Assembly (NCBI RefSeq): GCF_003336425.1
Contig: NZ_QEIO01000079.1
Span: 1-44,603, forward strand
Direction: 5' to 3'
DNA from: Marinitenerispora sediminis
Lineage (GTDB): Bacteria > Actinomycetota > Actinomycetes > Streptosporangiales > Streptosporangiaceae
Length of the DNA: 44,603 nucleotides
A program made the position numbers and the translations under genes. Shown here one piece after another: positions 31,448-43,833 of the stretch (position 1 is its first letter; every line of letters starts with the position of its first letter). A model generated the notes under the pieces. The model worked only from the letters and a program-made list of their open reading frames with translations. It made no database searches and had not been told where the DNA came from.

Positions 31448-31498
31448 GTGCAGAGCAACTCCCTGATTCTCGTACTTGGTCGGCGCGCCGCGAGCTGA
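31448..31498 (+). CDS. ilvB leader peptide (attenuator peptide)
   Basis: A 16-residue [19 protein letters not shown], starting at GTG 31448. Five consecutive branched-chain codons (Leu-Ile-Leu-Val-Leu: ctg att ctc gta ctt) precede a Gly-Arg-Arg tail, matching the known actinobacterial ilvB leader pattern (LVLG followed by basic residues). The cta/att/gta-type codons are rare in this genome, which would sharpen ribosome stalling. It has no Shine-Dalgarno sequence at usual spacing and a -10 box seven bases upstream, so it is probably translated from a leaderless mRNA. A terminator follows 20 bp later. Confidence 0.85.
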
Positions 31499-31518
31499 CC
31501 GAGCTGACGCTGCGCGCT

Positions 31519-31553
31519 CCCCTCAACCGCCTGTGGCCGGTGAGGGGTTTTTT
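31519..31553 (+). terminator. ilvB attenuator terminator
   Basis: cccctca (31519-31525) pairs with tgagggg (31541-31547), with an inner ccg/cgg extension, followed directly by six T residues (31548-31553). This T-tract hairpin is rare in this GC-rich DNA and lies between leader peptide and ilvB, the classical attenuator position. Confidence 0.88.
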
Positions 31554-31601
31554 GTTGCCAGAGCACGCCAAACCTCAGAGCCCTCTCCGAAGGATCTAGT
31601 G

Positions 31602-33389
31602 ATGACCGAGCAGATGACCGGAGCCCAATCGCTCATCAGGTCGCTGGAGCATGTCGGCGTCGACGTCGTGTTCGGGATTCCCGGTGGCGCCATCCTGCCC
31701 GCCTACGACCCGCTCTACGACTCGGCCAAGGTGCGCCACATCCTCATGCGGCACGAGCAGGGCGCCGGTCACGCCGCGGAGGGCTACGCCTACGCCACCG
31801 GCCGCCCGGGCGTGTGCATGGCCACCAGCGGGCCGGGGGCCACCAACCTCGTCACCCCGCTCGCCGACGCCTACATGGACTCCGTGCCGATGGTCGCGAT
31901 CACCGGCCAGGTCGCCGCTCCCCTGATCGGCACGGACGCCTTCCAGGAGGCGGACATCTGCGGCATCAGCATGCCGATCACCAAGCACAACTTCCTGGTG
32001 CGCGAGGCGGCCGACATCCCCCGCATCGTCGCCGAGGCGTTCCACATCGCCTCGACCGGCCGGCCCGGCCCCGTGCTCGTCGACATCGCCAAGACCGCGC
32101 TGCAGGCCGGCACCGAGTTCCAGTGGCCGCAGCGCCTCGACCTCCCCGGATACCGCCCGGTCACCAAGCCGCACGGCAAGCAGGTCCGCGAGGCCGCCCG
32201 TCTGATCGCCGAAGCGCGCCGCCCGGTGCTCTACGTCGGCGGCGGGGTGCTCAAGGCCGGTGCCGCGCAGGAGCTGCGGGTGCTCGCCGAGCTGACCGGA
32301 CTCCCGGTCGTCACCACCCTGATGGCCCGCGGCGCGTTCCCCGACAGCCACCGCCAGCACCTCGGCATGCCGGGTATGCACGGTACGGTCGCCGCCGTGG
32401 GCGCCCTGCAGCGCGCCGACCTCATCGTCGCGCTCGGCGCGCGCTTCGACGACCGGGTCACCGGCAAGCTGGACAGCTTCGCGCCCGACGCCAAGATCGT
32501 GCACGCCGACATCGACCCCGCCGAGATCTCCAAGAACCGGCACGCCGACGTCCCGATCGTCGGCGACTGCCGCGAGGTCCTCGCCGACCTGGTCGTGGCG
32601 GTCCGCGCCGACCAGGCGGCCGGCCGGCAGGGCGACTACGAGGCGTGGTGGGCGCAGCTGGACCGGCTGCGCACCGACTACCCGCTCGGCTACGAGCAGC
32701 CCGCCGACGGCTCCCTGGCCCCGCAGCACGTCATCAAGCGGCTCGGTGAGATCGTCGGGCCGGACGCCGCCTACGTGCCCGGCGTCGGCCAGCACCAGAT
32801 GTGGGCCGCCCAGTTCATCGACTACGAGAAGCCCGGCAGCTTCATCAACTCCGGCGGTGCCGGGACGATGGGCTTCTCGGTCCCGGCCGCGCTCGGCGCC
32901 AAGGTCGGGCGGCCGGACCAGGCGGTGTGGTCGATCGACGGCGACGGCTGCTTCCAGATGACCAACCAGGAGCTCGCCACCTGCGCGGTCGAAGGCATCC
33001 CGATCAAGGTCGCGGTGGTCAACAACGGCAACCTCGGCATGGTCCGGCAGTGGCAGACCCTCTTCTACGAGGGCCGCTACTCCAACACCAACCTGCAGAC
33101 CGCGCCGCCGGCCGGCGGCGGCAAGGTCCGGATCCCGGACTTCGTGCGGCTCGCCGAGGCGTACGGTTGTGTCGGGCTGCGATGCGAGCGCGCCGAGGAC
33201 GTCGACGCCACCATCGAGAAGGCCATGGCCATCGACGACGCGCCGGTCGTCGTGGACTTCACCGTCAACCACGACGCGATGGTGTGGCCGATGGTCGGAC
33301 CGGGCGTCAGCAACGACAACATCCAGTACGCGCGCGACATGGCGCCGGACTGGGACGACGAGGACGAGGAGAGGGCCACCTTCCGATGA
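31602..33389 (+). CDS. ilvB: Acetolactate synthase large (catalytic) subunit
   Basis: A 595-residue ThDP enzyme making acetolactate or acetohydroxybutyrate, the first common step of valine, leucine and isoleucine synthesis. The catalytic glutamate is E52 in [14 protein letters not shown]. The ThDP/Mg motif is [12 protein letters not shown] near 446, with the Asn-Asn-Gly-Asn segment ([14 protein letters not shown]) near 472. FDDRVTGKL near 283 belongs to the FAD domain. The ATG at 31602 has aagga seven bases upstream; an in-frame ATG at 31614 is less likely. Expression is controlled by the attenuator at 31448-31553. The stop overlaps the ilvN start (ATGA), so subunit synthesis is coupled. Confidence 0.97.
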
Positions 33390-41934: not shown

Positions 41935-41950
41935 GTGGCAGACTGGTCCC

Positions 41951-41992
41951 GTGCCGTCGCGGCTGATCATTATCGAGCGGCGCGCTGGCTGA
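41951..41992 (+). CDS. cimA leader peptide, isoleucine-rich (proposed)
   Basis: A 13-residue ORF, MPSRLIIIERRAG, starting at GTG 41951 and stopping at 41992. Leu and three consecutive Ile codons (ctg atc att atc) are followed by a charged tail, a layout like the ilvB leader. cagact (41939-41944) is a plausible -10 box seven bases before the GTG, implying a leaderless transcript. The sequence overlapping its end, gcgcgctggc (41980-41989), is exactly complementary to gccagcgcgc (42004-42013), giving a pause-type helix before the terminator. The role is inferred from arrangement. Confidence 0.75.
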   Translation: MPSRLIIIERRAG

Positions 41993-42014
41993 CCACGGAC
42001 CTCGCCAGCGCGCT

Positions 42015-42044
42015 GACCTCTCGTGTCCACGAGGGGTCTTTTTT
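42015..42044 (+). terminator. cimA attenuator terminator
   Basis: gacctctcgt (42015-42024) pairs with acgaggggtc (42029-42038; one G-T pair), followed by six T residues (42039-42044). It lies between the leader peptide and the cimA start. Only this and the ilvB attenuator have such T tracts in the window. Confidence 0.85.
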
Positions 42045-42090
42045 ATTGGGCCGGCGGGGCGACCACCACCTGTTTCGGGGAGTTCCACCC

Positions 42091-43833
42091 ATGTTGGACG
42101 ACAGTTTCCACGTCTTCGACACGACCCTGCGCGACGGCGCCCAGCGGGAGGGGGTCAACCTGACCGTCGCCGACAAGCTGGCGATCGCGCGGCTGCTGGA
42201 CGAGTTCGGTGTGGGCTTCATCGAGGGCGGGTGGCCCGGCGCCAACCCCAAGGACACCGAGTTCTTCCGGCGGGCCCGGACCGAACTCCCACTGCGCAAT
42301 GCCCGGCTCACCGCGTTCGGCTCCACCCGGCGCGCCGGCACCCGGGCCGCGGACGACCCGCAGGTGGCGGCGCTGCGCGAGTCGGGGGCTCCGGTCGTCA
42401 CCCTGGTGGCCAAGAGCGACGCCCGGCACGTGGAACGGGCGCTGCGCACCACGCTCGCGGAGAACCTGGCCATGGTCGCCGACACCGTGGCGTACCTGCG
42501 GGAGCACGGTCAGCGGATCTTCGTGGACTGCGAGCACTTCTTCGACGGCTACCGGTACGACCCCGAGTACGCGCTGAGCGTGGTGCGGGCCGCTGCGGAG
42601 GCGGGCGCCGACGTCGTCGTGCTGTGCGACACCAACGGCGGGATGCTCCCGGCCGACGTGACCGCGGTGGTCGCCGCGGTCCGGGAGCGCACCGGCGCCC
42701 GGCTGGGCATCCACGCGCAGGACGACACCGGGTGCGCGGTCGCCAACACGCTGGCCGCGGTGGACGCCGGCGTGACGCACGTGCAGTGCACCGCCAACGG
42801 CTACGGCGAGCGCGTCGGCAACGCCAACCTGTTCTCGGTGGTCGGCGCGCTGGAGCTCAAGTACGACCGCCGGGTGCTCCCCGAGGGCGGCCTGCGGGAG
42901 ATGACCCGCGTCTCGCAGGCGGTCGCGGAGATCGTCAACATCGCCCCGGCGACCCACCAGCCCTACGTGGGGGTGTCGGCCTTCGCCCACAAGGCGGGAC
43001 TGCACGCCTCCGCCATCAAGGTGGACCCGGACCTGTACCAGCACACCGATCCGGCGCTGGTCGGCAACGACATGCGCATGCTGGTCTCGGACATGGCGGG
43101 CCGTGCCTCGATCGAACTCAAGGCGAAGGAGCTCGGCATCGACCTCTCCGGCGACCGGGCGCTGCTCGGCCGGGTGGTCGACCGCGTCAAGGCACTGGAG
43201 CTGCGGGGATACAGCTTCGAGGCGGCCGACGCCTCACTGGAGCTGCTGCTCCGGGAGGAACTGGGCCGCCCGGTGCGGTACTTCGAAGCGGAATCCTGGC
43301 GCGTGATCGCGGAGCGACGAGCCGCCGCACGTCCGGAAGCGTCGGCACCGGTTGCCGGAGGCCGATTGGTGTCGGCGGTGGAGGGGAGTGCGGTGGGGAG
43401 TGCGGCTGGTGGCGGTGTGCGGCGAGCCGGATCCGAGTCCCCTCGCGGGAGCGCGGACGTCTCCCCGTTCCTCGGTGCTCCGGCCGCCGCGCTCAGTGAG
43501 GCCACCGTGAAACTGCACGTCAAGGGCGAGCGGGTGATCGCCACCGCCGAGGGCAACGGCCCGGTCAACGCACTGGACCGCGCACTGCGCACCGCCATGG
43601 AGGGTGTGTACACCGCGCTGGCCAGCCTCGAACTGACCGACTACAAGGTGCGCATCCTGGAGGGCACCTCCGGTACCGACGCCGTCACGCGGATCCTGCT
43701 CACGTTCAGCGACGGCCGCGGGGAGTGGACCACGGTGGGGGTGGGGGAGAACGTCATCGACGCCTCCTGGACCGCCCTGGAGCAGGCTGTGACGTACGGC
43801 CTGCTGCGTCAGGGGTACCCGAGCCGCGTCTGA
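42091..43833 (+). CDS. cimA: (R)-citramalate synthase
   Basis: A 580-residue LeuA-like enzyme that condenses pyruvate and acetyl-CoA to citramalate, a threonine-independent start for isoleucine synthesis. DTTLRDGAQREG near residue 10 carries the catalytic Arg and metal Asp; YGERVGNANL near 241 and the C-terminal LeuA dimer domain (from about 470, LHVKGERV) are present. The usual HxHND metal motif reads HAQDD near 208, with His replaced by Gln. The protein is about 40 residues longer than usual because the linker (about 405-460) is low-complexity; part of it is encoded by sequence matching the 103-bp repeat family. ATG 42091 has ggggag eight bases upstream. Regulated by the leader attenuator. 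Confidence 0.9.
   Translation: MLDDSFHVFDTTLRDGAQREGVNLTVADKLAIARLLDEFGVGFIEGGWPGANPKDTEFFRRARTELPLRNARLTAFGSTRRAGTRAADDPQVAALRESGAPVVTLVAKSDARHVERALRTTLAENLAMVADTVAYLREHGQRIFVDCEHFFDGYRYDPEYALSVVRAAAEAGADVVVLCDTNGGMLPADVTAVVAAVRERTGARLGIHAQDDTGCAVANTLAAVDAGVTHVQCTANGYGERVGNANLFSVVGALELKYDRRVLPEGGLREMTRVSQAVAEIVNIAPATHQPYVGVSAFAHKAGLHASAIKVDPDLYQHTDPALVGNDMRMLVSDMAGRASIELKAKELGIDLSGDRALLGRVVDRVKALELRGYSFEAADASLELLLREELGRPVRYFEAESWRVIAERRAAARPEASAPVAGGRLVSAVEGSAVGSAAGGGVRRAGSESPRGSADVSPFLGAPAAALSEATVKLHVKGERVIATAEGNGPVNALDRALRTAMEGVYTALASLELTDYKVRILEGTSGTDAVTRILLTFSDGRGEWTTVGVGENVIDASWTALEQAVTYGLLRQGYPSRV
43370..43428 (+). repeat. Copy of the dispersed repeat inside cimA
   Basis: ggcggtggaggggagtg (43373-43389) is an exact 17-bp match to the 103-bp repeats at 6284 and 6387, and similarity continues with few mismatches through ggcgagc at 43421-43427. 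It is read in frame as VSAVEGSAVGSAAGGGVRRAG within the interdomain linker. Confidence 0.7.

Follow-up and report, generated by a model that had tools for sequence, protein, structure and literature searches.

An isoleucine-coded leader upstream of cimA in actinomycetes as a probable leader-peptide attenuator

Does cimA, the citramalate entry to isoleucine, carry an attenuator of its own in actinomycetes? The question is raised by a DNA stretch of 44,603 nt, hereafter called the window, from Marinitenerispora sediminis (Actinomycetota; Actinomycetes; Streptosporangiaceae; contig NZ_QEIO01000079.1, assembly GCF_003336425.1). The leader in front of its cimA most likely acts as a leader-peptide transcription attenuator that reports the charging of isoleucyl-tRNA. 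The cell would very probably make more CimA when isoleucine is short, because an Ile-rich leader together with the same hairpin layout recurs before cimA in many relatives.

The element upstream of cimA

All parts of the element lie on the forward strand. An extended -10-like box (TGG-CAGACT, 41936..41944) has CAGACT at 41939-41944 directly after TGG, and 6 nt separate it from a GTG at 41951. This GTG opens a leader ORF of 13 sense codons, VPSRLIIIERRAG, which ends with TGA (41951-41992), carries its Ile codons at 41966-41974 and is kept in the fetched loci described below. A helix termed P1 (41980..42013; arms 41980-41989 and 42004-42013), found by folding and covariation, comprises 10 Watson-Crick pairs and could be extended by a G-U pair (41979/42014) and a C-G pair (41978/42015). 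It opens within the leader ORF and closes beside a predicted intrinsic terminator, T (42015..42044), whose arms (42015-42024 and 42029-42038) form a 10-bp stem followed by six T at 42039-42044, between the leader and the gene. The gene itself, cimA for citramalate synthase (42091..43833, ATG at 42091), matches TIGR00977 with 624.5 bits against a cut-off of 450. The -10-like box, 13-codon GTG ORF, 10-bp helix and six-T terminator that an earlier note on this DNA had described are all present where it placed them. The fold of 41948-42050 has a z of -2.78 relative to shuffled sequences, 3 of 200 shuffles being equally good; as this result is modest, the case for the element was built on comparison.

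The comparison started from the best 80 of at least 590 cimA loci, which came from Nocardiopsis, Streptomonospora, Thermobifida, Murinocardiopsis, Streptomyces, Kitasatospora, Actinacidiphila and others. A leader and a terminator are present in 80 of these 80 loci, two of which (L003 and L004, both counted) are contigs of one assembly with identical sequence at the element. The leaders were found through an ATTA[TC] core pattern in 79 cases; L040, which the pattern did not catch, proved on manual reading to contain Ile codons too. An ATG or GTG stands six codons ahead of the conserved AUU in the window and in 78 of the 80 fetched loci. The distance is five codons in L033, the ORF of which ends directly after MIIG, and in L040 the start lies six codons ahead of an AUC that stands before AUU. 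Furthermore, at a threshold of E 0.01, a covariance model built from 26 dereplicated sequences finds matches in 160 of the 296 class genomes, with one match in the window's genome. Among the matches listed, which favour better-scoring ones, 111 of 150 lie 11-217 nt upstream of a cimA match. Twenty of the other 39 were fetched, and 10 of them (L119-L127 and L130) are then followed by cimA; these 20 loci were picked for their model match, and the presence of the element in them is given by construction. A draw across the whole phylum gave matches at E 0.001 in 14 of 246 genomes; three of these, all weak, lie outside the class.

The -10-like region is conserved as well. In an alignment of 26 sequences, its TG and two A/T positions show at least 90% conservation, up to complete invariance, and in 70 of 80 loci (79 fetched cimA loci and the window) the pattern TGn[CT][AT]nnnT ends 6-7 nt ahead of the start codon, a spacing that fits leaderless transcription. 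The transcript would presumably begin at the GTG itself or at the adjoining base. Leaderless transcription has been reported for several leaders of S. lividans in the accessible text of PMC8079986.

The P1 helix was examined in 64 elements with 32 distinct pairs of nine-base arms, a sample that includes the mis-anchored L136. Here 259 of 288 cells are paired, a value reached by 0 of 10000 shuffles (shuffle maximum 248). Two-sided changes occur in six of the nine pairs, and covariation amounts to 0.273 versus 0.131 in shuffles and at most 0.093 in slid versions, while further pair types occur in ordinary number (91 of 500 shuffles have at least as many). The outer GCGC is almost invariant in sequence. 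The arms were anchored on GCGC-like motifs, by which the outer pairs are fixed, so the covariation information resides in pairs 3 and 5-9. Automatic parsing of P1 and T misread L131, L136, L162 and L165; a T hairpin was identified in 64 elements, with placement by hand in five (L127, L131, L162, L165 and L166). The loop between the nine-base arms of P1 ranges from 4 to 61 nt in the 64 elements, with no conserved internal core noted. The P1 core and T adjoin without a gap in 39 elements and are 1 nt apart in 20 and 2 nt apart in five. Only in a few elements, the window among them, do P1 and T have an outer base in common; since most lack such a base, exclusion of one by the other through pairing is not evident.

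The earlier note had tied its reading to the fate of the small ORF in relatives. The ORF is conserved, many families of the class retain the Ile codons together with P1 and T, and that attempt at refutation clearly fails; compensatory changes are found in P1, to which the covariation count is confined. Judged by this comparison, chance is excluded as the origin of the element. The element is confirmed as real in the sense that all of its parts are in place, the decisive evidence being comparative.

Leader codons and the genes that follow

Leader peptides were read at 117 loci (80 fetched, the window and 36 wider ones), which gave 71 distinct leaders. The peptides of the 36 wider loci were picked by eye, whereby frames with Ile were possibly favoured, and L137 and L165 were left out of the 38 wider loci since their start was unclear. 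Ile occurs in 71 of the 71 distinct leaders, at least two Ile in 65 and Ile-Ile in 63, and Ile accounts for 18.6% of their residues. The end of the peptide is variable. The leader comprises only 8-10 codons and stops soon after Ile in 28 of the 36 wider loci, and in 17 of 62 elements P1 begins on the last base of the stop codon. In eight Streptomyces loci (L046, L050, L052, L060, L068, L073, L076 and L078), a small change has altered the frame after the Ile codons, leading to another stop, with the Ile codons and P1 kept. The conserved part is the start, the Ile codons, the helix and the terminator, and not the end of the peptide.

The choice of Ile codon is distinctive as well. AUU makes up 96 of 153 Ile codons in all 71 distinct leaders, and 51 of 72 when only the distinct leaders from named loci are counted. 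In the cimA genes of the 81 named loci, 1416 of 1416 Ile positions are AUC, as are 49 of 49 in five genes of the window; AUU occurs in neither set. The preference for AUU could serve slower decoding or an open 5' end.

The same architecture is found before other genes, and both main kinds occur in the window itself, LILVL before ilvB and LIII before cimA, with P1 adjoining T in each. A leader of 16 residues with LILVL, paralogous to the cimA leader, lies at 31448..31498 on the forward strand, overlapped by a P1 with an abutting terminator (31482..31553; fold z -2.20, 6 of 200 shuffles as good); leader and tandem together occupy 31448-31556. The ilvB gene follows on the same strand at approximately 31602..33323, with its ATG at 31602 and a TIGR00118 match over cut-off at 31614-33323. 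Among 30 ilvB loci from the class, 28 were found to have a leader. The 27 distinct ilvB leaders, the window's included, contain Val in 27 cases and Leu in 26; they were chosen for the highest share of Ile, Leu and Val together, which favours branched-chain content but none of the three singly. Ile-Ile occurs in 63 of 71 cimA leaders versus 0 of 27 ilvB leaders (Fisher p 2.3e-17, which is only nominal because related sequences are not independent). The claim of the earlier note that cimA has a dedicated Ile leader, separate from that of ilvB, is borne out by this split between Ile-Ile and Val/Leu leaders and by the window's own LILVL leader before ilvB.

Further genes follow the layout with their own codons. 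Among loci found by the model, ilvB lies downstream of L116, L128 and L129, and leuS downstream of L113-L115, the leaders of which have Leu runs. The leuS family was matched by the longer pieces of L113 and L177, while the 59-residue fragment of L115 gave no match; L114, L115, L178 and L179 were named leuS by eye. An ilvA-type threonine ammonia-lyase directly follows the element in L117 (360-502) and in L118, with a leader that ends in MAIT before the stop; the L117 protein, when scanned, fell below the curated cut-offs. Outside the class, leuA follows a leader ending in NLLLT before the stop in L180, with a UAG-P1-T layout at 205-316 on the reverse strand, and in L181 and L182 ilvB was recognized by eye past an intervening reading frame. 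Across cimA, ilvB, leuS, leuA and the ilvA-type gene, the codons read in these leaders match the gene downstream, as is expected of attenuation that depends on tRNA charging. That codons track the gene within one architecture is the strongest argument that the leader codons are read.

Two side observations concern neighbouring functions. The genome of the window has five threonine-ammonia-lyase-like matches, 0 of them above the TIGR01127 cut-off. In L111 and L112, the Ile-coded leaders MFALVIIM and MFTPRIII, each closed by a stop, precede an ACT-like protein of about 105 residues, below the Pfam cut-off, which is possibly an isoleucine-related regulatory subunit.

Ribosome position, termination and competing explanations

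From these patterns we infer the promoter and its start, the translation of the leader and its dependence on isoleucine. Transcription would begin at or next to the GTG, and a leaderless ribosome would translate up to the Ile codons. Its position, at the Ile codons or at the stop, would then set how far the 5' arm of P1 is covered and how active T is. With ample charged Ile-tRNA the ribosome would reach the stop and mask P1, and T would end transcription before cimA; with scarce charged Ile-tRNA it would stall upstream, P1 would form, and RNA polymerase would read through. The geometry is consistent with this. About 8-15 nt separate the Ile codons from P1 downstream. When the A-site holds the first Ile codon, the distance to the start of P1 is 11-15 nt in 60 of 62 elements; when it holds the last one, 8-11 nt in 56 of 62. 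If the ribosome footprint is set at 12 nt from the A-site, a ribosome stalled at Ile would leave much of P1 free and one at the stop codon would cover it. Stalling should permit transcription if the gene is biosynthetic, and P1 would therefore oppose T, a role presumed by comparison with C. glutamicum ilvBNC, where an antiterminator hairpin adjoins the terminator.

Equilibrium folding lends no support to this opposition. When 62 elements were folded either free of a ribosome or with one masked in at the first Ile codon, the last one or the stop codon, the median probability of T stayed at 0.99; the sole element with T below 0.5, L060, showed it with the ribosome at the stop, which is the wrong direction for the model. 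A weak hairpin between the 3' arm of P1 and the 5' arm of T is found in 44 of 48 segments (median -2.85 kcal/mol), with a median z of 0.09 against base-shuffled versions. Since T is predicted to form in all states and this alternative is no better than in shuffles, the link between the position of the ribosome and termination is one that we infer. A classical antiterminator was sought in folds of 13 elements, in the 62 masked elements, in the 48 segments and in consensus folds of 11 Nocardiopsaceae-type and 68 Streptomycetaceae-type sequences, with 0 exclusive alternatives. Two pairings proposed by eye, GGACC with the 3' arm or the loop of T and a GAGG:CCUC extension of P1 in Nocardiopsaceae, do not recur across families.

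Could termination instead respond to translation in general, through initiation or ribosome-polymerase coupling, with the Ile codons being a relic or serving an unstructured, slowly decoded 5' end? Codon substitutions in the ilvB leader of S. coelicolor were reportedly without regulatory effect (PMC1262725, as far as its accessible text goes), and the simple attenuation model may accordingly be incomplete. The folds that yielded no exclusive antiterminator point the same way, and the strong preference for AUU could reflect a requirement for A/U-rich sequence. However, A/U-richness alone needs no matching of codons to genes, and the split of Ile-Ile between cimA and ilvB leaders, together with the Leu runs before leuS and leuA, makes this explanation unlikely. 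It is highly improbable that P1 and T form a structured RNA that senses a ligand or protein in the manner of a riboswitch, with the ORF incidental. P1 does covary, with its near-fixed outer GCGC, but its loop varies widely in length around no noted core, the start, stop and Ile codons are conserved, and a permissive Rfam search returned weak matches at chance level. At the gathering score, Rfam gave no known riboswitch or T-box at the cimA element. Just as improbable is that T is a constitutive partial terminator which only reduces cimA expression and regulates nothing; this agrees with a T predicted to form in every ribosome state, yet leaves the conserved Ile codons, the fixed position of the start and the covariation of P1 unexplained. 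Elsewhere in the window, a TPP riboswitch was recognized at 1505-1610 (RF00059, 64.2 bits).

Attenuation through Ile-tRNA charging thus remains the preferred reading, and it may be extended. Tentatively, and with considerable doubt, a single RNA architecture, in which a helix at the end of the leader abuts a terminator, might serve the whole branched-chain regulon of actinomycetes, with only the codons swapped among cimA, ilvA, ilvB, leuS, the ACT-like gene and, outside the class, leuA. The ribosome position would then be read without an exclusive antiterminator, with P1, once formed, acting on T at the RNA exit channel as a steric or kinetic hindrance. The abutting layout of P1 and T opens attenuation that lacks a classical antiterminator to direct testing, may account for the puzzling S. 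coelicolor ilvB mutants, and, with its exchange of codons along with the downstream gene, offers a natural experiment.

Kinship with described leaders, and exceptions

In the trp and ilvGMEDA operons of E. coli, charging-dependent translation of a leader ahead of an intrinsic terminator acts through a mutually exclusive antiterminator, whereas none was found by folding in the cimA element. In actinobacteria, leader-peptide control has already been described for ilvB, leuS, leuA and trp (accessible text of PMC1262725 and PMC8079986). A close counterpart is C. glutamicum ilvBNC with its ilvB-II motif, where, in the portions available of PMC11857589 and PMC10272879, the leader starts one nt from the transcription start and stalling at control codons is proposed to favour an adjoining antiterminator hairpin; mutational work gives the terminator-adjoining hairpin that role (PMC11857589). 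Both systems combine a short leader with branched-chain codons, an overlapping hairpin and an intrinsic terminator directly after it. They differ in the gene, ilvB with Ile, Leu and Val codons there and cimA here, and in the junction, since the antiterminator and terminator of C. glutamicum, as far as described there, overlap by a GCC trinucleotide and the P1 core and T of the cimA elements are 0-2 nt apart. The cimA element does not lie upstream of ilvB and falls outside the ilvB-II motif, but it may work like it. Additionally, it resembles the Streptomyces ilvBHC (MRTRILVLGKRVG) and leuS leaders, leaderless short ORFs with matching codons (PMC8079986 and PMC1262725, in part); ilvB and leuS leaders of that kind were recovered here with the same model or layout.

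Within the literature searched, the leader-peptide attenuator proposed for cimA, with its abutting P1-T design, is new within a known kind, and the widely common layout may deserve a description of its own. The accessible parts of the sources list eight leaders for S. lividans without cimA (PMC8079986) and mention neither cimA nor citramalate in the 2005 survey text (PMC1262725). A cimA leader is likewise not described in the available portions of PMC11857589, PMC10272879, PMC11109978 and PMC4833913, the third of which has eight uORF candidates, most of them given in its supplement. The statement of the earlier note that it knew of no such description agrees with the absence of a report in the open-access text searched, a scope with subscription literature mostly outside it. 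With this leader, cimA would gain dedicated control apart from the ilvB leader in many actinomycete families, predicted to respond to Ile-tRNA charging, and a possible use lies in the engineering of isoleucine and branched-chain precursors in Streptomyces.

The element is widespread but, on the loci compared, not universal, because 12 inspected cimA loci are without an Ile leader. Among the matches listed, 39 genomes have cimA without a linked model match, and 20 of them were inspected. Eight have a leader and hairpins by eye (L161-L163, L165-L167, L169 and L170); the 12 without an Ile leader are L151-L159, which belong to family f17, L160, L164 and L168. The ilvA-type loci L117 and L118 belong to f17 as well, in which none of the nine inspected cimA loci has an Ile leader. 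Rfam gave no match for the f17 loci L151-L158. Upstream of cimA in L151-L155 and L158, a different hairpin-like motif, with neither Ile codons nor a U-tract, is common to these f17 loci.
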